From NCBI GenBank assembly GCA_019914995.1, contig CM034126.1, positions 6,577,001 to 6,641,000 of the forward strand: a stretch of DNA of 64,000 bases, in the 5' to 3' direction. Both the position numbers and the translations under genes were made by a program. Positions within the stretch are counted from its first letter, which is position 1; each line of letters starts with the position of its first letter. Source of the stretch: Acanthochlamys bracteata. Taxonomy: Eukaryota > Streptophyta > Magnoliopsida > Pandanales > Velloziaceae. The notes under the pieces were generated by a model. The model saw nothing but the letters and a program-made list of their open reading frames with translations, did not search any database and had not been told where the DNA came from. Below are positions 2,276-55,131 of this stretch, one piece after another.

Positions 2276-3400
2276 AGTCTATGCTTTCCAACTTGCGTGT
2301 TTCCTCTGATAAAATTTAGGTTTTTCGGCCAAATATAAAATTCTAAATATTTTATATGTCTATTTATACAAAAAGTTTTATTTTTCATAATATCAATTTT
2401 AAACTCTATTTTTTTATATTTATATTTTCTAATTAAAAATTTCATTTCAAGACTCAATTTTAATAAAAAGATAATTATAAATATAAACTATTATTAATAA
2501 TTATTTTTTAAATAATTTATTTTTGTAACTCATTTTCAAACAAAATAGACAAATTTTGGTGTCTTATTCAGCATTTTTTCTAAACCAACAAATAGATCGT
2601 TTATTCAATATATAAATAAAAAATATGTATTCATTCAAAATAAAGTTAAATTATATATTAATTCAAAATAATTAAGACGTTGAGGAGCTGTCCATTTGTA
2701 TTAATAATTTAAGTAAAATAAATATTGGAAATTAAGTTTTGCAGAAAAAGTAAGTTTGAAGATATGAGTAGAAAATTCTTGTATTCAACTTTTATGTTGC
2801 ATTGATTATTAAACTTTACATACTTCGCTCTAAAATAGATAACAATATAATATAATCAATAACTTTTATATTAACTTTCCATAGAATATAAGGGTGCATT
2901 TTAATTGTTCGGAATTCAATTTTTTTGTCAAATTTTGAATTCAAATTTATGTTTTTTAATTCAGTTTACACTTAACTTATCTTTAATTTATTTCCATCAA
3001 ACTTAGTTTTACTAAACTTAATTTCATAAAACTCACTTCGTACTAATTAAAACACACTCTAATTAAAACTCACTTGAAAATCATTATATTTCAATTCAGT
3101 TTTACGAACGCATTTTTCAGAAATCAAGTCTTTAGGACAAATGACGAGAAGACTCACTTATCCGATTCTCAAACTCATTTCAAACTATGTCACGCATGAG
3201 TGAATGTGTCTTTAACTGGGACACAAATTGAGCTTAAAGTATCTTTACCTATCATGCGTATGTAAACCTCTATACCATTGTTACTACTAATAGAATTTCT
3301 ACATCATTATGGATCAAAATCTAAATGAAAATGAACAATCTATTATAAGTCAAGTTCTAACAAGTTCTGAGTCACACTTTGTAGTTTTTTTTCAATATAC
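2276..3400. other. AT-rich spacer in copy 1, no gene
   Basis: About 2276-2555 is an AT-rich stretch with no counterpart in copy 2, where the flanking sequences are joined near 15975-15990; this looks like a small insertion in copy 1. The rest matches copy 2 (2556-3120 against 15985-16650, and 3160-3360 against 18845-19030). No supportable coding sequence is present. Confidence 0.5.
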
Positions 3401-7185: not shown

Positions 7186-7231
7186 ACCACAATATCCACC
7201 ATGAAATCCATGCAAGCCTTCTTATTAAGCC

Positions 7232-10200
7232 ATGGAGTTTCGATTCATTCTCAAACTTATCTCGACCCTACTGCACTTATTAGTCTTCTTGCTTGTTTCC
7301 GAGACGGTAGCCACATCTTCCCTCGACTCCCAGGTTAGAGCCCTCCTACAATGGAAGTCCTCCTTAGCTAACCAAGACCACCTCTCTTCATGGACCCCCA
7401 AAACACACCCATGCAATTGGACTGGCATAACGTGCAGAACCGTACTGCATAGCTTTAAACCAACCATAACTAGAATCAATCTATACAACATGGGACTTAT
7501 TGGACGGCTAAATACGCTAAAATTTTCCGCTTTGCCATCCCTCAGGAGCCTAAACCTTAGCTTTAACTATATCCAAGGCTCAATACCTCCAACCGTTGGC
7601 AATCTATCTCGTTTGACCTCATTGGACCTCTGCGCCAACAAATTGATCGGCAGAATTCCCTCATCTATTGGTTTTCTAACAAGTCTTCATTTCTTACGCT
7701 TGGCAGAGAACCAGCTAACCGGGCCCTTGCCTTCCAATATCTTTAACTTGACTAGGCTCATTACTTTAAACCTGACTGACAACAGCCTTTCAGGCACTAT
7801 CCCTGAATTAGGCATGCTTAGAAATATACTGGAAATAGACATCTCCGGAAATCATTTCACAGGGCCAATCCCTACTGCTTTGGGAAACTTGTCTACCCTT
7901 CATTTCTTATATATCGGGCACAATGACTATACTCCTGGTTCAATTCCTCATGAAATAGGGAAGTTAGTGAACCTTAACTGGTTAGGCATCTCCAAAAGCA
8001 ATTTAATTGGTCCCTTCCCCACCATAATACTAAACATGACAAATCTTCATATCTTGAAACTCTATGAAAACAATATTACGGGTACTTTACCCCCAAACCT
8101 AGGAAACCTTCAACAACTGACTGATCTAGAGATCGAAACCAACCATCTAGAAGGCTCTATTCCCCAAAGCTTAGGAAACCTGACCAATCTTAAAGTTTTT
8201 TACCTTGGGTACAATCAACTCACGGGCTGGATTCCTAGTGAAATAGGAAACCTTCAACATCTTCAGGAGCTTTTTCTGTATTACAACCAATTATCCGGTC
8301 CTATTCCTGGATCATTTGGGAATCTTAAAAAACTAGTAGATCTACGGTTGTTTGATAATAGCCTATCTGGATATTTGCCTCATGAATTAACAAATTTGAC
8401 AAATCTTCAGTTCCTTATGTTGACCTCCAATAATTTTTCAGGACCTATTCCACCGGACATTTTTAGAGGAGGAGCACTTCAATTTCTTTCAATGGGTATA
8501 AATGATTTCTCAGGACCTCTACCAACAAGCATAAAGAATTGCACAAACCTAGCCATACTAGCAGCTACTTTCTGTCATTTTAGTGGAAGAATATCAGAAA
8601 CCTTTGGTGTGCATCCCAACCTCACATACCTAGATTTAAGATTCAACCAACTATCCGGGCAGATGTCACCTTTTTGGGGTAAATATTCCAGCTTAACTAT
8701 TCTTGACATCTCCAATAACATGCTCAATGGAGCACTACCACCGGAATTTGGACAACTGTCTCAACTAAGGGTGCTTGACCTATCTTCCAATCGTTTATTT
8801 GGTGAAATTCCAAACTCTTTTGGTCAGTTAAAAAATCTTTACAAATTAAATGTTAGCAAAAATCAACTCCAGGGGGACTTGCCGAAAGAGCTTAAGGATC
8901 TCTCTAATCTAGAGGTGTTAGATCTATCTGCAAACAACTTAACAGGAAAGTTACCTGAAGAACTAGGCAATTGCTTCAAAATTCATTTCATAAAGCTAAG
9001 CAACAACAACTTCAGTGGGCAAATCCCTGCTAAGATTGGCAATCTTCAATATCTGCAAGAGCTGCTGGATCTAAGCCACAACTGCTTGTCAGGAGTTATA
9101 CCTTCTGAACTAGGCAAACTGGCAATGTTACAAAATTTAAATCTCTCTTTCAATCAGCTATCTGGCCAAATTCCAACCTCATTTCAAGTTATGATCAGCT
9201 TGACATCTGCCGACTTATCATACAATTACTTAGAAGGAATAGTTCCAGACAGTATGTTATTTAAGAATGCTCCTACAAATGGTTCATTGGTAACAAGGGG
9301 TTATGTGGTAGTGTAAGTGGTTTGCCTTCATGCTTTCCACCTCCAAGAAAAGTGCACGGCCATAAGCACCACAAGGTTCTGACGATTATTGCTCCTATAT
9401 GTTCTTTGTCTCCAGTATTTATACTACTTGGAGTTGTATTCTTCTTGAAGAGGCATCATGACAAGAACAGAAAGGAAGACGAAGGTCTATTCTTGTTGTG
9501 GAATTTTGATGGTAAAGCCAAATATAAAGATATCATCGATGCATTAGAAGATTTTGATGAAAAATATTGAATTGGCAACGGAACGTATGGACATGTGTAT
9601 AAGGCAGTGCTATCGCCAAATAAAGCCGTTGCTATAAAGCGAATTCAAGATGGAGCAAGTGAAATGCCAGACTCAAGACTTTTTCACAATGAGGTACGTG
9701 CACTAGCCAATATACGACATCGTAATATAATGAAACTGTATGGCTATTGCTACAACAACCAACACAAGTTTTTGATATATGAGTTCATGGAGAATGGATG
9801 TTTAGCGAGCAAGCTCAGAACACAAAATGAAGCATTAGAGATAGACTGGGGCAAAAGAATTAAAATCATAAGAGATGTTGCCAATGCTCTGTCATACATG
9901 CACCACGATTGCAACCCACCATTGGTTCATCGTGATATTACAAGTAATAACATTTTGTTGGATGGAGAATTCAGAGCATGCGTTTCAGATTTTGGGATAG
10001 CCAGATTATTAAAACCAGATTCATCGAACTGGACTTTGCTTGCTGGTACAAGAGGATACATAGCACCAGGTAAACTCCATTCCTCAACTTATATACATAA
10101 AATAATTTACACAATATGTTACTTTGCCTTAGCTTTATTTCTTACTAGCGTTTGTTAGTATAGAAGTTTGAAGAGATTATTAATTTTTTTTGATGTTTTC

Positions 10201-15904: not shown

Positions 15905-16650
15905 TAAAGTCATGTGCCTAATCGTACTATATGATTTATTGAAATCGCAACAAAGACTCATTTGATGCTACTATGTTTTGCACATTATTGTCTTATTCAG
16001 CATTCTTTCTAAACCAACAAATCAATGCGTTATTAAATATATACAAATTAAAAATAATAAATATAAAGTAAAACATATATTAACTTAAAATAATTAAGTA
16101 AGACGTCGAGGAGTTATCCATTTGCTTTTAATGATTTAATTAAAAAAATATTGGAATTTGAGTCTTGCAGAGAAAGTAAGTTTGAAGATATGATTACGAA
16201 ATTGTTGTATTAATATTTTATTTGTATTAATCGAAAAACTTACCACATTTCGTTCTAAAATACATAACAATATAGAGGTTGTTTCGCAATGCGAAAACTT
16301 TTCATTCTATTTAAAATTTTACTTTTCCGAATAAATTTTTTATATTATTTTATAAACTTTTTTACTTTTAAAAAATAAAGGTGAATTGTATATCATAGAA
16401 TCTTTATATATATAAATTTTATTATTTTTTGAGATAAAAAATGTCAAGTTTGATTGCTGAAAAGTCACAACATTAGCTTTTTTTTTTTTCAAAAAAAACT
16501 CCTTATATATGGTCAATAACTATGTTTATTGACTTCCATAAAATAGAAATGGCCTCAAGTCAAAAAGCCTAAAAATCATAATTCTAATTCATTTTTAGCT
16601 CACTTCTTATCAAACTCAATTTTTAAGAAATCAAGTATTCCAAACACATG

Positions 16651-16877
16651 TGGGGTTGTTTGACAGTGCTTAAAATAAAATCTTTTCTAAAATAAGGAAT
16701 ATTTCAGAAACTTTTGGGAAATGAAATTGACTTTTTTACCTAAAATAAAATAAAATTATACATATAAAGGTTGTACCTAAATTAAAAAAAATTATAGAAT
16801 ACTATACAAAATTTATTAGAAATGAGAATTATTTATTTAGAATGAAAAGTGCCTGATAACTATTACCAAATAGCACC
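16651..16877. mobile_element. AT-rich MITE, inserted in copy 2 only
   Basis: Begins TGGGGTTGTTTGACAGTGCT and ends ATTACCAAATAGCACC, with the family core (ACCTAAAATAAAATAAAATT then ATACATATAAAGGTTGTAC). The matching place in copy 1 (around 3130) has no such sequence. Confidence 0.55.
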
Positions 16878-17249
16878 GAAGAGCAGAAATCTATTGGATT
16901 CTCAAAACTGTAGTTGGCAGACCTGAACTGGACGTTCGGATCAACCCGAGAATAGTCGACCCAAACGGCAAACGGTCCAGGTCTGCAAATAGTCTGTCCA
17001 TGCTACCGACCCGTTATGACCACTTTGACCCGAACAACCTCCCGCTTGGGTAAACCCGCTCTTATATTTAAAAAAATAATTACTAAAAATATAACCTTAT
17101 CCTTACCTGGCTCGATTGAATACTAAATTTCTAATACAATTTCATTCTACTTCTCATTTGTGATGTTCAGACGAGCTCGCCCATGTTCCCCGACGAGCTC
17201 TTTCGACTGCTAAATTTCTTCCAGATCTAGACACCACTCTCTACTTAAG

Positions 17250-17796
17250 TACAGCAACTCTACGTACGAGAAGCAACAGCACGGGGGTTATGGTGCTCCG
17301 TCCGAAACTGGTAGCGGTGCTCATCACTAGCCAGAGAAGAAAGGTCTTGGCGAGAAGCTTGGTGAGAAGCTTCATTGATCCGGCAGCTCCGTAAGTTCTT
17401 ATCTTTCTCCCTTCTTTGAGAATTTTGCTATTGGTGGAAAGAATAAACGTATAATTCATACCAAGATCTACATATTACAAGGATTGTACATGTATTGTGA
17501 AATTTCAAATGAGCAAATTAGTAAATTTCAAGGGAGCAAGAGCCTCTGATTCTAATGGAAACCAGGGAGATTACTGCAGATATATATAGCGGTTCCTTTC
17601 ATAACACTAGAGTACTTGTTTCAAGAATAATCCTGAAATTTACATGAGCTAGAGTACTACAATAGTATAGATAACTTTGTAACATGAAGCCATTTAATAA
17701 CAATCAATCAAGTATATAATCATCAAATTTAAACATTTAGGAAGTAGAACTTCAATTTGCTCTTTTTTCTTGATTGTTGCAAGCATTTATAAATAA

Positions 17797-17838
<42 letters not shown>

Positions 17839-18473
17839 GAGATGATGTATGGATTAGTTAGTGTGTTGTATCTTTATAGATATTATATATATATATATTT
17901 GATGTCACAACTCTTCATAGATCATTAGAACGACAACTCTTTGCTTTCTCATCGCTTCTCATCAGACAGTCTTAACTTGTCAGTGACTGGCTCTTTAGCT
18001 TTCATTAATAAGTAGACTTCCTTGAAATGCTTTTTGTATCTCTTCTATTAAGCAAGAAGAATTTGATTAAAGTAGAAGTAGGCAGTACTTCAACAACAAA
18101 CCATGTACACATATACATGCTCGAGAATAAGAACATCATAGACGAATGCAATGTCTTTTGATCTATTATTTTTATAAAGAATGCCTTCATATCCACAACC
18201 TTTTCCAACTTGTCTTGCTGAATCAATGGAGGTATTAAAGAGTTGTGGACACATCCTTTTGGTCACCCTCTACTAGCAAATGAAAATCAACAAAATTTTT
18301 ATGTACATAAGTTTATATAAATATAGTCTTTGGTTATATAAACTCTTTTCTATTTCATACATGATAAACTTTGTTCATACTTCACAGAATTTCTCTGTTC
18401 TTGTTAGATCTTTTTTATTGTCCCTTGGCAGTTAAGTGTGTCGGAGAACATTATGTACGATGGAAAAAAAGCT
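17250..18473 (+). pseudogene. Captured dehydrin (YSK-type LEA protein) fragment, two exons
   Basis: Exon 1 (17250-17390) reads EKQQHGGYGAP, then GSGAHH, then PEKKGLGEKLGEKLH, then SGSS, and stops at a GTAAGT donor. This is the dehydrin order of glycine-rich segment, HH, K-rich linker and serine tract (S-segment). After an intron of about 1 kb, exon 2 starts at 18432 behind GGCAG and continues the serine tract in degraded form (SVSEN, then DGKK). Dehydrin genes of this type are known to have an intron inside the S-segment, which fits the break seen here. Two in-frame stops lie in exon 1 (TAG 17328-17330 after HH; TGA 17376-17378 where the family has the Arg of LHRSGSS). The N-terminal Y-segment and the C-terminal K-segment are not seen. 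Dehydrins are stress-induced disordered proteins; this fragment is not functional. Recognition is by eye. Confidence 0.65.
17800..17834. repeat. TA microsatellite
   Basis: About 17 TA units inside the presumed intron of the captured dehydrin fragment; a shorter TA run follows at about 17884-17900. Confidence 0.9.
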
Positions 18474-18851
18474 ATTAGCACTTTGGTAGACCGGCCGCCA
18501 AGATTGGGTGTTGGCCTATTGTACTGACTGTAGTGATGCGTTGAATTTGTTGATGTTGCTGTAACAATCTAAATTGATGAGTCTTATTAAAACCTAAAAG
18601 ATTACCTATAAATGTTGCTGATGTTATTGACCTATTGCACCTTTGGAGTTTTAAGTGATCTTGATGCTTTTTAAATGATTGTAATTGCATGTGTTAGGTA
18701 TTGACCTATTGCACCTTTGTAGCTGCAGAGCTATTAGCATTGGCAAACAGACAAACATTAAGTTGATCCGATGAATCAACCTGCGACCCGGCAACCCGAA
18801 TAGCTTTTCAGGTCGATAGCCGGATCAGTTTTTATAACTATGCTCAAAACT

Positions 18852-19954
18852 CATTTCAAACTATGTTACGTGTGAGTGGAGTCCTTAAGTGGACACAAAT
18901 TGAGATTAAATGATTTTTTTAACCATCATGCATATGTGAACCTCTGTACCATAGTTAGCCACTAGTAATAGAACTTCTATGTCATTAAGGATCAAAAACG
19001 AAAATGAACAATTTATTATAAGTGAAGGTCTCAAAACTTCTAATTAGGAACGTTTGGTGTTGTTTAAAATAAGGTGATTTCTTTTACAAAGAAGTTTATT
19101 TTTAAAAATTTTCAAAAAACTAGTTTTTTATCTTCAAAATAAAAAATTATATGTATAAAAATTTTATGATGTAGAATTTATTTATACATTTTAAATTAAA
19201 TTTTTTTAATATTATAAAATATTCATTGAAAAATAAAATGCTTATTTAAACAAAGGAGGTTGATAAGCAACTCCAAACAACAGCTTAAATCATATTTTTT
19301 TTGGATTTTTTGAATACATTATAACTTTACATAAGCCAAAAGTAGCCAATATTAAAGTGCAATCAAATGTCTTAAGCAAAATTTCAAAAAGATTACAAAA
19401 GAGAAAGGAGTAATGATAATTTTGTTTTTGGTAATACAGTATCTCACCAAAAGGAAATTTGAATAAAATCTCATTGTACATAGATCGACTAATTTTCAAC
19501 GAAAACAGAGTATCTCTTTTTTTGTCCCTTAAAGACTGAAGCAAGCATTTAGGACTTTTTCCTTGTAATAGAATTGTTTTTAGAAAATATCTAATTAAAT
19601 AGCAGTGTCCTAAAATTTTCCTCGTTTTTCAATTGGTTACCTAACAGAAATTCAGAACTCCTCTATGCTTGTTCGATTTTGTTCTCGATTAACTGTTGTA
19701 AAGGGTTCCCCTTTTAAGTATATATTTTTCTTTCTAAAACACTTTGTCATTATAAAGTATGACTTATGAAATACATAATTGTAGAGGAAAAGTGCATATT
19801 TTTTACACAGTTAGTTTGAAAATACGATTTTGGTCTTAAAAAAGATTATTCTGGTTTAATATGATTTTCAAGAAAAAAATAGATTAGGAAATAGTTACGA
19901 CAAGGAAGAATTACTTTGGCAAAAATTGCTTCACAAGAGAAAAAAAGGGCACAT
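18852..19954. other. Distal upstream region of the intact receptor kinase, no gene
   Basis: Matches 3165-3915 of copy 1 with indels, so it was in the ancestral block. It contains another AT-rich MITE (about 19043-19285, from AACGTTTGGTGTTG to a CCAAACA end). No reading frame is kept between the two copies. Confidence 0.5.
19043..19285. mobile_element. AT-rich MITE, ACGTTTGG ends
   Basis: Begins GGAACGTTTGGTGTTGTTTAA and ends GATAAGCAACTCCAAACA. The interior includes TAAAAAATTATATGTATAAA, a variant of the family core. It is absent from the corresponding part of copy 1 (around 3360). Confidence 0.5.
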
Positions 19955-21689: not shown

Positions 21690-21737
21690 GCCACATTATC
21701 CTCACCATGAAATTCATACAAGCCCTCCTATTAAGCC

Positions 21738-24700
21738 ATGGAGTTCCGATTCATTCTCAAACTTGCCTCCCTCCTACTGCATCCAGTAGTATTCTTGCTT
21801 GTTTCCAAGACGGTAGCCACATCTTCCCTCGACTCCCAGGTTAGAGCCCTCCTACAATGGAAGTCCTCCTTAGCTACCCAAGACGATCTCTCTTCATGGA
21901 ACCCCAAAACACACCCATGCAATTGGACTGGCATAACGTGCAGGACCGTACTGCATAGCCGTAAACCAACCATAACTAGAATCAACCTACACAACATGGG
22001 AATTAATGGAAGGCTAGATACGCTAAACTTTTCCGCTTTGCCATCCCTCAGGAGCCTAAACCTTAGCTTTAACCATATCCATGGCTCAATACCTGTAACC
22101 ATTGCCAATTTATCTCGATTGACCTCATTGAACCTCAGCACTAACAAATTGACCGGCGGAATTCCATCGTCTATTGGTTTTCTAACGAGTCTTCATTTCT
22201 TGGGCCTGGCAGACAACCAACTAACAGGGCCGATGCCTTCCACTATGTCTAACTTGACTAGGCTCATTACTTTAAACCTGACCCACAATAGTCTTTCGGG
22301 CACTATCCCTGAATTAGGCATGCTTAGAAACATAAAGGAAATAGACATCGCCTGGAATTATTTCACAGGGCCAATCCCTACAACTTTGGGAAACTTGTCC
22401 AACCTTCATGTCTTATATATTGGGCACAATGACTACACTCCTGCTTCAATTCCTCATGAAATAGGGAAGTTAGTGAACCTTAATGAGTTAGGCATCGCGA
22501 AAAGCAATTTAATTGGTCCCTTCCCCACCATAATATTAAACATGACAAAGCTTCATATCTTGGATCTTTATGAAAACAATTTAGCCGGTACTTTACCCCC
22601 AAACCTAGGGAACCTTCAACAATTGAATGACCTAGAGATCAACACTAACCATTTCGAAGGCTCTATTCCCGCAAGCTTTGGAAACTTGACCAAGCTTAAA
22701 GTGTTGTACCTTTGGAGCAATCAGCTTACGGGCACGATTCCAAGTGAAATAGGAAACCTTCAACAATTGAATGACCTAGAGATCAACACCAACCATTTCG
22801 AAGGCTCTATTCCCCCAAGCTTAGGAAACTTGACCAAGATCCGCATCTTGTATATTCACGAGAATGGACTCAATGGACACCTTCCTTCAAGTCTAGGAAA
22901 CCTGCCACAACTTCAGGAGCTTATTCTATATTACAACCAATTATCCGGTCCTATTCCTGGATCATTTGGGAATCTTAAAAAACTAGTAGATCTACGGTTG
23001 TTTGGTAATAGCCTATCTGGATATTTGCCTCGTGAATTGGCAAATTTGACAAATCTTCAGACGCTTGTTTTGTTCTCCAATAATTTTTCAGGACATATTC
23101 CACCAGACATATTTCAAGGAGGAGCACTTCAATATCTTTCAATAGGTACCAATAATTTTTCAGGACCTCTACCAGCAAGCATAATGAACTGCACAAACCT
23201 AGACACACTAAAAGCTACTGCTTGTCATTTTAGTGGAAGAATATCAAAAACCTTTGGTGTGCATCCCAAACTTACATACCTATATTTGAGATTCAACCAA
23301 CTATCCGGGAAGATGCCATCTTTTTGGGGTAAATATTCCAACTTAACTATTCTTGACATCTCCAATAACATGCTCAATGGAGCAATACCACCGGAATTTG
23401 GACAACTGTCTCAACTAAGGGTTCTTGACCTCTCTTCCAATCGTTTATTCGGTGAAATCCCAAGCTCCATTGGTCAGTTAAAAAATCTTTACAACTTAAA
23501 TGTGAGCAAGAATCAACTCCAGGGAGAATTGCCGAAAGAGCTGAAGGATCTCTCTAATCTAGAGCTGCTAGATCTATCTGCAAACAACTTAACCGGAAAG
23601 TTACCTGAAGAACTAGGCAATTGGTTCAAAATTCATTTCTTAAAGCTAAGCAACAACAACTTCAGTGGACGAATACCTGCTAAGATCGGCAATCTTCAAT
23701 ACCTACAAGAGCTCCTAGATCTAAGCCACAACTCGTTCTCAGGAGTTATACCTTCTGAGCTAGGTAAACTGGCAATGTTACAAAATTTGAATCTCTCTTT
23801 CAATCAGCTTTCTGGCCAAATTCCAACCTCATCTCAATATATGATCAGCTTGACATCTGCTGACTTTTCATACAATAACTTGGAAGGAACAATTCCAAAT
23901 GATGTTTTCTTTAAGAATGCTCCTTACAAATGGTTCATCGGTAACAAGGGGTTATGTGGTAGTGTGAGTGGTTTGCCTTCATGCTTTCCACCTCCAAGAA
24001 AAGTGCATGGCCATAAGCACCACAAGGTTCCAACTGTTATTGCTACTACATGCTCCTTGTCATTATTATTTATATTGCTTGGAGTTGTGTTCTTCTTGAA
24101 GAAGCATCATGACAAGAATAGAAAGCAAGACCAAGTTCAATTCTTGTTGTGGAATTTTGAAGGTGAAGCCAAATATAAAGATATCATCGAAGCATTAGAA
24201 GATTTTAATGAAAAATATTGCATAGGCAGCGGCGCATATGGACATGTGTATAAAGCTGAGCTATCGCCAAATAAAGCCATAGCTGTAAAACGAATTCAAG
24301 AAGGAGCAAGTGAAATGCCAGACTCGAGACTTTTTCATAACGAGGTACATGCACTAGCTCAAATAAGACATCGCAATATAGTGAAACTGTATGGCTATTG
24401 CTACAACAACCAACACAAGTTTTTGATATATGAGTTCATGGAGAATGGATGTTTAGCAAGCAAGCTCAGAACACAAAATGAAGCGTTAGAGATAGATTGG
24501 GCCAAAAGAATTAAAATCATAAGAGATGTTGCCTATGCTCTATCATACATGCACCATGATTGCATTCCACATTTGGTCCATCGTGATGTTACAAGTAGTA
24601 ACATTTTGTTGGATGGAGAATTCAGAGCATGCGTATCAGATTTTGGAATAGCTAGATTGCTAAAACCAGATTCATCGAACTGGACTTTGCTTGCTGGTAC

Positions 24701-25561
24701 AAAAGGATACATAGCACCAGGTAAACTTCATTCATGAACTTATATACATGAAATAAGTTACACATAACTTATGTACATCTTAGCTTTCCTTCTTACTAGC
24801 ATTTGTTAGTAGAATTTTGAAGAGATTTTTAATTTTTTGAAGTTTTCTATAAATGAAATGCTCACAGAATCTTTGCTATAGAAGTGGAGGTCATATAGGT
24901 ACCTATTTGGCATTTAATCATCCTTTGAAGCCCAACTTTTGTGTAACCACTATATAGAAATTTATCGTCTTATGTCAAGATTAGGAACAGCAATTACATG
25001 TGGATGCAAATTTATGTAGACAGCGTATACTTTAGTATATAATTAATTCCAATGACAAGGTGATCATGATGGGTAACATCAGTTTTGATATCATGTACTT
25101 TTCTGCACTTCAGGAGTTAATGCAGCGTCCTCAATACATGAATTTTCAGCAAACAACTCTGAGCTTTCCTATAATTTATGTTTAATCTCATATTCATTAT
25201 AATTTCTGCAGAGCATGCCTATACATTAGCTGTGACTGAGAAATGGGATGTATATAGTTTTGGAGTAATCTGCTTGGAGGTCCTACATGGAAAGCATCCA
25301 GAAGAAATCATTTCTGAAATATCCTCTTCTGGTGGTGGAAACGTATTGCTCCTGGAATTTCTAGATGGAAGACTACCAGTTCCAGAGTTAGAAATTGCAA
25401 AAGCGATTACTAGAATTGTTATAGTCGCATTAGCATGTCTGAAGGAGAGGCCTGAATCACGTCCAACAATGCAATCTATTGCTCAACAGTTATCGTCTTC
25501 TAAGTTTCCACATTCCGTCCAATCTGTGGACACTCTCAGGTTATCAGATCTAATGCACTAG
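21738..25561 (+). CDS. LRR receptor-like kinase, MIK2-like (LRR-XIIb type), intact
   Basis: Exon 1 21738-24720, GTAAAC donor; acceptor CTGCAG, exon 2 25212-25561; 1110 residues. The join is phase 1 and completes the APE motif of the kinase (GYIAPE). Order: signal peptide (about 1-27), LRR N-cap with CNWTGITC (about 59-68), 27 LRRs of the plant type, membrane segment (about 765-787, [12 protein letters not shown]), kinase (about 829-1100). Kinase motifs are complete: GSGAYGHV loop, AVKR lysine, HRDVTSSN catalytic loop, DFG, DVYSFG, and the distal R of RPTM. It is thus probably an active RD-type kinase at the plasma membrane. Relatives such as Arabidopsis MIK2 sense peptide or damage cues; the ligand here is unknown. 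The pseudogene at 7232-10881 is its tandem paralogue, with two fewer LRRs. No frame-breaking change is seen. Confidence 0.93.
22611..22838 (+). repeat. 144-bp offset direct repeat encoding duplicated LRRs
   Basis: Bases 22611-22694 and 22755-22838 agree at 81 of 84 positions at an offset of exactly 144 bp (48 codons, two LRRs). The encoded words are [16 protein letters not shown] in both. The paralogue at 7232-10881 has only one such unit and is 48 residues shorter there. So either the intact gene gained two LRRs or the pseudogene lost two. Confidence 0.9.
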
Positions 25562-50867: not shown

Positions 50868-51683
50868 TAGGGATCGCAATATATGACCCAATCCAAAAAT
50901 TCAATTCAAAATCAATCTATTTAATCAAAATTAGAGTTGAAAAATTTGACCCGGTTATTAAATGGGTCGATCCGGGTTAATCCGAAATTGACTCACCAAT
51001 CCGAAATATCATTTTTTGAAGAAATAATTTTGATTTTTTCTTACCGTATAATAAAATATTGGTAATAAAAATAATCGATAATAGTTATTTACAAACTATT
51101 AAAGTATATTGTATTTATAATTAATTTTTTATTTTTATACCTTAGTAAAATAGTGTAAGATGAAAATTATAATATTATCGAAAGTATCACTATGTAGGTA
51201 TTTTTAATGACGAATTTAAATTTCGTATAAAGATTTTTATGAAAATTTTGTTAGATAGATATATTTATCAAAATTTTTATCGAAATTATTAATATGTATT
51301 TATAATCATAAATTTCAGATGTTATCATATATTTTCAAAAAATAAAAATAACAATTTTTTTTGGATATTTTAAGGGCCAATGAAGACATTAAAAATACAT
51401 ATTTTGTCGGACATAATTATATCTCATCAGTAAAAATATCGTGCACCTTTATTCGAACTGATTTTATAATTTCGCTGAAGCTTAAAAATATATAATTAAT
51501 AATTAATATTTTTAATTATTAAATAAGTCGATCCGAATTTGATCTGGTTATTAGTAGGTTGGATTAGGGTTGACAATTTTGACCCGTATAAATTTATGGA
51601 TTGGATTAGGGTTTAATGAATTTGACACGGTTATTAAATGGGTCGATCCGAAATCGACCCACCAACTCATATTGCCACCCCTA
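50868..51683. mobile_element. Non-autonomous hAT element A, with exact 8-bp target duplication
   Basis: 816 bp from TAGGGATCGCAATAT to ATATTGCCACCCCTA, inverted ends of about 15 bases with two mismatches. The 8-mer CGTTTAGC flanks it exactly (50860-50867 and 51684-51691), the length used by hAT elements. Inside each end are several copies of GGTCGATCCG and GATCCGGTTATT. No open frame of note, so it needed a transposase from elsewhere. Most of its length matches element B at 52045-52896. Confidence 0.8.
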
Positions 51684-52044
51684 CGTTTAGCTTAGCTTAT
51701 TAGATATTTTATTTTAAAAAACATTTCATTATTTAATAATTTCAATATTTTAAAATATAAAAATAATAGCTGCAAAAATATATATATATATATATATATG
51801 TAATTTATTTCTACTAATAAATTAAGTTTATTGTTAAAAAATGTTTTAAATAGTTTTTATTTTTAAAAAGTTTGTTGTCTAAGCACGTCAAACGTCTTTT
51901 AATATTTTCATAATATTATTTAATTTTAGAAAATATTATGCTATCGGCTTTCAAATATATTTGAAATTTTCAATCTGAAAATCTCGATAATTGCTGAATA
52001 GAAAACACCCCAAATATAATATTAGTGGACCAAAGACATTTATA
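51684..52044. other. Spacer between the two hAT elements
   Basis: AT-rich, with a TA microsatellite at about 51778-51800. No gene. Confidence 0.6.
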
Positions 52045-52896
52045 TAGGGGTGGCAATATATGATCCGATCCGAAAATTTAATCCGAAATCGACCTGTTTA
52101 ATCAGAGTTAGGGTTAGAAAATTTGACCCGTATAAATATATAGGTTGGGTTAGGGTTGAATTAATTTGATCCGGTTATTAAATGGGTCGACTCGGGTTCA
52201 CACGAAATTGACCCACCAATCCGAAATGTCATATTTTGAAGGAACAATTTTTGATTTTTTCTTACCGTATAATAAAATATCAGCAATAAAAATAATCGAT
52301 AATAGTTATTTACAAACTATTAAATTATATTGTATTTATAATTAATTCTTTATTTTTATATTTTAGTAAAATAGTGTAAGATGAAAATTATAATATTATT
52401 AAAAGTATTACTATATAGGTAGTTTTAATGACGAATTTAGATTTCTTATAAAGATTTTTATGAAAATTTTGTTAGATAGATATATTTGTCAAAATTTGTA
52501 TCGAAATTATTAATATGTATTTATAATCATAAGTTCAGCTGTTATCATATATTTTTAAAAAATAAAAATAACAATTTTTTTATATTTGAAGGACCGATGA
52601 AGATATTAAGAAATACATATTTTATCGAACATAATTATATCTCGTCAGTAAAATATCGTGCACTTTCATTCGAACTGATCTTATAATTTCGCTGAAGCTT
52701 AAAAATATAAAATTAATAATTAATAATTATAATATTAAATAGGTCGATCCGAATTTGATCCAGTTATTAATAGGTTGGCTTAGGATTGATAATTTTGACT
52801 AGTATATCATGGGTTGAGTTAGGATTGAACGAATTTGATCCGATTATTAAATAGATCGATTCAAAATCGACCCACCAATTCATATTGCCACCCCTA
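52045..52896. mobile_element. Non-autonomous hAT element B
   Basis: 852 bp with inverted ends TAGGGGTGGCAATAT and CATATTGCCACCCCTA. Flanking 8-mers CATTTATA and TATTTATG agree at 6 of 8, both differences being transitions, as in an old target duplication. Same family as element A: shared interior words include TTCTTACCGTATAATAAAAT, TCGATAATAGTTATTTACAA and TATCGTGCAC. No coding capacity. Confidence 0.8.
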
Positions 52897-55131
52897 TATT
52901 TATGATCCCACAAGTAGGACTATTATTTAATTACAATAAGCTATATTTACCGTACTTATTATTATTTTAAAATTTATTCATTTTATTCTTTATAAATTAT
53001 TATAATAAAGTTTATAGTATATTTATTTTATACATTTTAAAATAAAATTAATTTGTTTTTAAAACTTTTGAAATTTTAACAAATATTATTTTAAATAATT
53101 TCAAACATTTTCAAAATATATCAACCTACTATTTCAACTCGCATATTTTAAACTCGTAACTAAATTTCATATAAGTAAAAAAAAGAAATAATTTTTTTAA
53201 AAATAGATTAAAAATAAAATTTCATTTTATATTTCAATTAGTTTAAAAATGAATTAAAAATTTAAAAATAAAACTGTATTAAAAATATATAAATAAAAAA
53301 ATTAAGACAAAAATTTTTATATATAAATTTAGAATATCTAATATTTTATATAAATAAAATATATAAACTTTGTAAAATTCTAATTTAAAAATTTTTGGGC
53401 GATTGAAACATGCGCTTTAACGTCGGATCTGAAATATTTCAAGTAGTGGTCTCAGTTTACGAATTTAAACTCAATTTCAATACGAATCAAATACTATCTT
53501 ACTAATTTAAATTGGATCGGTGTTAGAACTTCATGTGCTTTCTAATTAGAAACAAGTGGTCCATTAATTTGTATTCTAATTTGAATCCAAAGTTTAAGCT
53601 AATAATTTAAATAAGTTTTAAGTTAGAAGTGTCAGAGAATTTTAATAAGAGCCAAAAAAACTAAGAATATATAAACATGACAAATAGCACAATTTTTATT
53701 TTTCTTCACAAGTATGCTACTACACCTATTAGGGTGTGTTTTATCTTGATATAAAATTTATTTTTTAAAAATAAGTTTGAAAAATTAAATTTAAACTTAA
53801 ACATATTTAAGAACAATAAGATTTTATATTAAAATAGGTATTAAATTAAATTGTGAAAAGATTTTAGTAAAAAATTATAATTTCAAATAAATAAATTTTT
53901 ATATAAAAATAATTTCCAAATACAAATGAATGATGTATCTCAAGAAAAGAACCGAGGCATACAAAAGAAGATGAAGGCAGAGAGCCTCCATTTTCTCGAG
54001 AAGACTTTTGCTAGGGGACTTTCACCATAATCGTCCACTCTACCTTTCAGGATATATATATAGGTGAAATCAGAGTCCGCCGACAAGTGCAACTAGATCC
54101 GGGGTCAGCGAGAAAGGTTTAAGTTAGCTTGTTTATAAAATAAAATTTTTTTGAAATAAAAAATATTTTTATTTTTTTTAAAATAAGTTTTATTTTTTTA
54201 TTTTTAAAAAATTAATAAAAATATATAATAAAAAATTTTATTTTGTATAATTTTTTTTACATTTTTTAATTTTTAAATAAATTTTTTATATAATTATAAA
54301 ATATGTATTAAAATTTAAAATAAAAAAAATTTGAAAAGTAGCTTCTGATCAGCTCAACCAAACGCGCTATAAATGATAGATAAAAAGTCTGGGGCTGCGC
54401 TTTTCTTCAAACATATATAATATTATTCACTTTTTTCTAACATCTATTCTGTTATCTTCACCTCCACACGTAAAGTTACCTTCCCCCCTCTCCACTTTCT
54501 GGAATTATAATTTTAAATATATATTTTATATTTATTAATAATGTATATAATATTTAGTATAATATTTAAAAATATAAAACTATTATTATTAAACTTATAT
54601 ATAAATACCTTAACTTTAATTCAAAAAATTAAAATTATTTCTAAAAATATTTTTATTTAAAAAACTATTTGTATATTCAGAAATAAATAATTTTTAATTT
54701 TCTGCTATTTTTATAAAGAATTTCTATAAAATTTTAAAATATATAATCAAAGTTTTTTATTATATCTATTTTTTAAAAATATAAAATAATTTTATTTTAA
54801 AAATTAAAATATTTTTATTTAGAATTTTTTATTTGAAAAATATTTTGAAAAGCTCCTTTTACCCGTTCTGATTAGCCACATGCTTCATCTTCTATTAAGT
54901 ACTGATCAGCGGTTCAGGTAACTCTTCTTCTTTTTTTATACGCGTGGCATCGTATATTGGTTTCCTATTGTAAAACTTTTTCTAATGTCTTTTTTTCTTT
55001 TTTAACCATGACTACCTACCTGCACGGCAATACCCAGTTAGTTATTTATTACCAAGTATTCAAATATAAGTAATAACAATAAGCAAGCGAGTGAGCACCC
55101 ACCCCTTTCTCTCTCCCCGTCGTCCTTCACC
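52897..55131. other. AT-rich intergenic DNA and SUVH promoter region
   Basis: No gene seen. 53730 onward begins TAGGGTGTGTTTTATC, similar to the GTGTTTA MITE ends. A MITE-like sequence lies at about 54115-54371. 55098-55127 is a pyrimidine-rich patch (CCCTTTCTCTCTCCCC) of the sort common at plant transcription starts, just before the SUVH leader. Confidence 0.45.
54115..54371. mobile_element. AT-rich MITE, CCAAACGCGC end
   Basis: Right end GATCAGCTCAACCAAACGCGC, left GTTAGCTTGTTTATAAAA, AT-only interior. Resembles the element at 60497-60740. Confidence 0.45.

Follow-up and report, generated by a model that had tools for sequence, protein, structure and literature searches.

The 64,000-nt stretch of the Acanthochlamys bracteata genome analyzed here (contig CM034126.1, denoted C1, positions 6577001-6641000; hereinafter, the window) contains a Pack-hAT, i.e., a non-autonomous element of the hAT superfamily that carries a captured fragment of a host gene, in this case a piece of a dehydrin gene. 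It is very probable that the element was inserted once beside a receptor kinase gene and was then copied by tandem duplication. The genome searched for relatives of the element, donor genes and transposases comprises 195.5 Mb.

Boundaries and target site duplication

The element occupies positions 16909..18842 of the window (1934 bp, TGTAGTTGGCAG..TTTATAACTATG, on the plus strand, as are all its parts described below), and related ends recur in the genome. It is flanked by two copies of the 8-bp word CTCAAAAC, at 16901..16908 and 18843..18850; the left copy is found at the same place beside two further copies of the element in the array (F2 and F3, see below), and the right one was identified by word search and from the table of family ends. 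The element between identical target copies that was proposed in the initial annotation is real: the 9-mer CTCAAAACT occurs at four sites on the plus strand of the window (16901, 18843, 19030 and 37877), and the pair 16901/18843 brackets a unit that recurs elsewhere with related ends. The possibility that the 9-mer pair is a chance repeat was ruled out by the recurrence of the same ends and the same site. The previously assigned length of 9 bp had to be revised, however: the duplication is better read as the 8-bp CTCAAAAC followed by the first base of the element, which is C in F2 (L010) and T in the window and in F3 (L014), because the ninth base disagrees in 7 of the 11 family elements that were tabled.

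The table includes the window copy, L010, L011, L012, L020-L023 and L063-L065, with the window copy and L010 representing one insertion. For seven of these (L010-L023), a script picked the register within a few bases from the combination of end motif and match. For L063-L065, which are 3 of the 40 listed left ends taken from the top rows, the 8-mer preceding the left end was sought downstream with one mismatch allowed, and each was found once, in exact form. L019 and L024, which yielded no left end accompanied by a matching word, as well as L013-L018 and L032-L037, are outside the table. The two target copies are identical at all eight positions in 8 of the 11 elements, namely CTCAAAAC (window and L010), GTTAAAAC (L020), GTTTTAAT (L021), ATGATGAT (L022), CTTTCACT (L063), CCAAACAT (L064) and GTTAAGAG (L065); they agree at 7 of 8 in L011 and L023, and at 2 of 8 in L012. 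The ninth base differs in L010, L011, L020, L021, L022, L023 and L063, all with the first eight fitting at 7/8 or 8/8, and is the same on both sides in the window copy, L064 and L065, with L012 being uninformative. The dehydrin-related elements L011, L020, L021, L022 and L023 are located at separate sites, each with its own, differing target duplication; the family that carries the captured fragment has thus been mobile.

The hAT-like 5' terminal and subterminal region (16911..17221) matches L033 at 67% over element positions 11-321. The probable 3' subterminal region (18329..18630) matches C4:7826848 (L035) at 66%, a site some 1 kb downstream from the remnant of a hAT transposase (DNA that is 74% like the transposase region of the coding element on C10 described below), and the 3' terminal region (18782..18842) matches the right end of L022 at 75% over 61 bp. 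The longest reading frame inside the element is 85 aa. The inverted repeat of the window copy amounts to 14 identities among 26 end bases in a global alignment that had no shuffled control; aligned locally, the ends score 23, below the shuffle mean of 35. Under the global alignment, there are 18-20 identities of 26 in L022, L063, L064 and L065 (20 in L022) and 15 in the C10 element.

Relatives in the genome and hAT affiliation

A DNA search with positions 16901-18851 yields at least 37 matches, with dispersed relatives on C9, C3, C4, C13, C14, C6, C15 and C2, among others. One relative is a 5680-bp element at C10:7722758-7728437 that has the left end of the family, with the 5' end of the window element matching it at 72% over the first 168 bp, and the 8-mer GTAGGAAG on both sides (8/8). 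In its frames, DUF659 is found with E 1.5e-54 and the hAT dimerisation region with E 1e-11, along with zf-BED below the cut-off, so that it is predicted to be a transposase-coding relative. The right ends of L022, L011 and L063 match this element, whereas the right end of the window element does not. Because the right end of the window element is unmatched, the C10 element is to be considered a relative and not a proven helper. The family is placed in the hAT superfamily by its 8-bp duplication and by elements that have the same ends and carry hAT transposase domains.

The captured dehydrin fragment and its donor

The dehydrin part of the window element consists of a short match to the upstream region of the donor gene that adjoins the coding part (17226..17245; 20 bp at 95%, E 0.004), an exon 1 fragment with two in-frame stops (17250..17390; QQHGGYGAP..GEKLGEKLH.S), and about 50 nt of the 5' part of the intron, starting with GTAAGT (17391..17440), as delineated by alignment with the donor and with L022. 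The closest gene found, at C7:4719442-4720100 (L005), codes for a dehydrin and has a single intron, which lies where a serine tract ends. It matches the window at 78.6% over 206 aligned columns (element 350-540, intron start included), and the alignment passes through the splice donor into the intron; in tblastn, the donor protein finds the window element with E 1.7e-25. The donor was sought among 8 dehydrin loci that were compared singly, the other 13 of the 21 dehydrin rows including exons of single genes and sister copies. Among the matches listed in the whole-genome DNA search with 16901-18851, only C7:4719668 and C12:4817417 fall in dehydrin genes. The captured pieces diverge from the C7 donor by approximately 15-20%. 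We also observe that dehydrin matches cluster at C7:4.70-4.81 Mb and at C12:4.81-4.86 Mb; these two clusters perhaps belong to a duplicated chromosome pair.

The initial annotation described a two-exon dehydrin fragment including its intron. What is indeed present (17250-17440) is the 3' part of exon 1 with its splice donor, followed by some 50 nt of the intron, but exon 2 is absent from the window copy: donor exon 2 matches the window element at chance level only (best E 0.054, falling on the exon 1 part), and neither translations nor blast revealed an exon 2 at 18380-18560 above chance level. The two-exon content does hold for six dispersed sister copies (L019-L024), each of which contains dehydrin exon 1, the intron and the start of exon 2. 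The dehydrin profile search, set beforehand as a test, came out negative for the window copy, with no Pfam family found for its peptide (X at the two stops), and the dehydrin is instead recognized through tblastn and the DNA match to the C7 gene.

Across 338-346 aligned columns, the six sister copies share 81.5-85.4% identity with the C7 gene, compared to 73.6-75.5% for the next-best of the 8 loci, the dehydrin locus on C12 (L004). All six stop at donor residue 96-97, a common end that fits one capture, and the dehydrin capture probably happened once. In four of the six (L019, L021, L022 and L023), 22-38 bp of donor upstream DNA adjoin the coding part. Given this upstream snippet, the intron and the start of exon 2, the captured material was genomic DNA and not cDNA, as originally proposed and in line with the match of the window copy that crosses into the intron. 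In L019 (C15:3368425-3371840), the exon 1 and exon 2 stretches are both stop-free, and Pfam recognizes dehydrin with E 1.5e-4 (below the cut-off) for one stretch and 1.2e-7 (above it) for the other; each of L020, L021, L022, L023 and L024 has at least one stop in exon 1. It appears unlikely that the dehydrin Pack-hAT family is functional, whether through transcription and splicing of L019 to give a shortened dehydrin-like peptide or through small RNAs of the family that act in trans on the donor gene.

The homology of the window element to these sister copies ends at approximately 17447, within the intron; from there on, matches are limited to the terminal 60 bp in the case of L022 and to about 30 bp in that of L019. 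The middle segment (17452..18124) is of other origin and resembles C12:1719088-1719641, in four pieces at 76-82%. A coding origin of this segment was examined with two frames, one at the C12 locus and one in the window, neither of which produced a Pfam family above the cut-off; no family-typed ends above shuffles were found at the C12 locus. Nearly the whole structure of the window element is present in L011 on C9 (element 51-1944 at 81%), which has its own target word. These observations fit a replacement of the inner part between related elements, as has been proposed for Pack-TYPE elements (PMC8903248).

Filled and empty sites in the receptor kinase array

The window is located within a tandem array of LRR receptor kinases on C1. 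In duplication copy 2, the kinase frame (21735..24734, plus strand; Pfam LRR_1 E 2.1e-65, Pkinase E 7.9e-32) is 2.9 kb downstream of the element; the partner frame in duplication copy 1 is at 7229-9313, with continuations. The insertion site is filled in three array copies (F1-F3) and empty in two others (E1 and E2); in a further copy (F4), an inner remnant of the element adjoins the same flank. F1 is the window copy. F2 (L010, C1:6528504-6530458) is full-length, and F3 (L014, C1:6496664-6501418) is inverted and full-length but split by other DNA, with one base different in the right target copy (CTCGAAAC). F2 and F3 agree with the window copy in both flanks and are therefore the same insertion; its presence in further array copies indicates one insertion amplified by tandem duplication. 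F4 consists of element positions 585-915 at C1:6505753 and 923-1494 at C1:6512669, followed by the same downstream flank; since both element ends are lost, its target site is unreadable.

The absence of the element from window copy 1 (E1) is borne out, with approximately 2560-3370 in register on both sides. The target word, which had been thought to occur there once, is found in altered form: the exact CTCAAAACT is absent, and the empty site reads CTCAAACT at 3168..3175 (plus strand; GATTCTCAAACTCATTTC from 3164), one A shorter than in copy 2. To the left of the insertion, readable homology between copies 1 and 2 extends over only some 35 bp, mismatches included, since a MITE occupies this position in copy 2 and other sequence in copy 1. 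The second empty copy, E2 (L057, C1:6469001), has a left context like that of E1 and the shorter spacing CTCTTGAACT. A search with the right flank listed 46 matches (40 of 839 candidates were scored), of which six are the array copies F1-F4, E1 and E2; the remaining 40, dispersed over the genome, correspond to a repeat contained in the query. Coverage of C1 below 6477001 was confined to the surroundings of L057, so that further array copies may exist there.

An unrooted tree of the six sequences was built from about 1 kb of the right flank (1016 columns, of which F1 covers 1016, F2 532, F3 492, F4 830, E1 1016 and E2 962; the insert in E2 was left out). The tree separates {E1,E2} from {F1,F2,F3,F4} with an ultrafast bootstrap of 100, and the midpoint root falls on the E2 branch. 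Flank identity is 0.89-0.93 between filled copies, 0.74-0.82 between filled and empty copies, and 0.77 between E1 and E2. Given this separation, a single insertion copied together with the host segment is the simplest reading, and window copy 1 probably never contained the element.

Transitions and transversions number 201/95 (F1-F2), 122/59 (F1-F3) and 179/89 (F2-F3) in the element and 31/45, 33/38 and 32/49, respectively, in the flank; the difference in bias between element and flank yields Fisher p values of 2e-5 (F1-F2) and 0.003 (F1-F3), for pairs that are non-independent. The transition excess in the element could weakly hint at deamination of methylated cytosines and hence at present silencing, but the share of changed CG sites is similar in the element (38/58, 27/50 and 38/56 for F1-F2, F1-F3 and F2-F3) and in the flank (4/8, 6/9 and 6/10), which counts against this interpretation.

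Several other repeats were noted. F4 is split by about 6.6 kb of DNA (C1:6506071-6512684; L041, L042) whose ends, each about 990 bp long, are inverted copies of each other at 93% identity and inside of which a MULE transposase domain with four stops is found at C1:6509964, i.e., a Mutator-like element is nested in the Pack-hAT. MITE-like repeats that are partly inverted copies of each other flank the insertion site at window positions 16301-16780 and approximately 19051-19240, and the 40 scattered right-flank matches fall on the second of these. Finally, two direct copies (89%) at 50931-52902 of the window resemble the DNA inserted in F3 (C1:6497519-6498379).

Alternative explanations and proposed scenario

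A Mutator-like origin of the element, with a 9-bp target duplication, was considered, given that CTCAAAACT is repeated 9/9 around the window copy, that the ninth base also agrees in L064 and L065, and that MULE domains are abundant in the genome (at least 150 rows). Against this possibility stands the disagreement of the ninth base in the seven tabled elements with well-fitting first eight bases. Moreover, none of the 40 family left ends has a listed MULE row within 4 kb, the nearest being 6 kb away (131 of the 150 listed rows, those on contigs with left ends, were compared), whereas 6 of the 40, the C10 element among them, have a same-strand hAT-type transposase match within 4 kb downstream (a count that used 32 of the 112 transposase rows). 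Membership among MULEs was accordingly rejected and is very unlikely. The proposition that the dehydrin match is due to chance or to a retrogene draws on the lack of a Pfam profile match for the window peptide; it is refuted by the alignment through the splice donor into the intron, and it is hardly conceivable given also the tblastn match and the intron and exon 2 start in the six sister copies.

The remaining alternative, that copy 1 once held the element, which was later excised or deleted, is improbable, albeit slightly less so than the Mutator-like origin. hAT elements excise, the one A missing from the target word of copy 1 is readable as a scar, and in an unrooted tree the root could lie among the filled copies. 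However, excision normally leaves extra bases of the target duplication, and a deletion in copy 1 is unlikely because the second paralogue, L057, is also empty, with the same shorter spacing, and because E1 and E2 are set apart from the filled copies in the tree, with the midpoint on the E2 branch.

Under the preferred reading, a single insertion of a Pack-hAT followed by tandem duplication, a deletion derivative of a hAT transposon of the zf-BED/DUF659 type would have captured, as genomic DNA, a stretch of a dehydrin gene closest to C7:4719442-4720100, comprising the upstream snippet, the 3' part of exon 1, the intron and the start of exon 2. The resulting two-exon Pack-hAT would have spread to the six dispersed places where it is now found. 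A recombinant form might then have arisen, in which the 5' end, dehydrin exon 1 and the start of the intron were retained but the middle and 3' part came from another lineage; this form would have been inserted upstream of an ancestral LRR receptor kinase gene with an 8-bp target duplication. Tandem duplication would subsequently have copied the segment and the insert together, with the lineage of window copy 1 staying empty. The element presumably was moved in trans by the transposase of full-length relatives. Relative dates are provided by the flanks, in which filled copies are 7-11% apart and filled and empty copies 18-26%. A single genome thus displays the likely donor, the captured copies, a relative predicted to code for a transposase, and one insertion in both its filled and its empty state; because all stages are readable in one genome, the order of capture, spread, insertion and tandem duplication is testable.

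Comparison with known systems

With the hAT transposons of the zf-BED/DUF659 type, exemplified by C10:7722758-7728437, the window element shares the left end and the 8-bp duplication but, in contrast to these, it contains no long reading frame. Pack-MULEs of rice capture genomic gene fragments and typically create 9-bp duplications. The capture of a genomic gene fragment is common to these elements and the one described here, whereas the 9-bp duplication and, among the listed rows, a Mutator-type transposase were not found with the ends of the window family. Among the papers listed in literature searches, no title or abstract start joins dehydrin and gene capture by transposons; one of these papers contains the terms 'dehydrin' and 'Pack-MULE', and three contain 'dehydrin' together with another of the terms.

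The closest counterparts are Pack-hATs known from maize and rice (PMC8903248). According to that source, these share with the window element the non-autonomous state, hAT ends, an 8-nt target duplication, captured host gene DNA and an internal part that varies between related elements. The present case differs from them in the plant genome, in the end sequence (CATAGTTG..), in the captured gene, a dehydrin, and in the additional copying through tandem duplication of a receptor kinase array. The window element is thus a new, well-documented member of a published kind (PMC8903248) and extends the Pack-hATs of maize and rice by a dehydrin case from a further plant genome.
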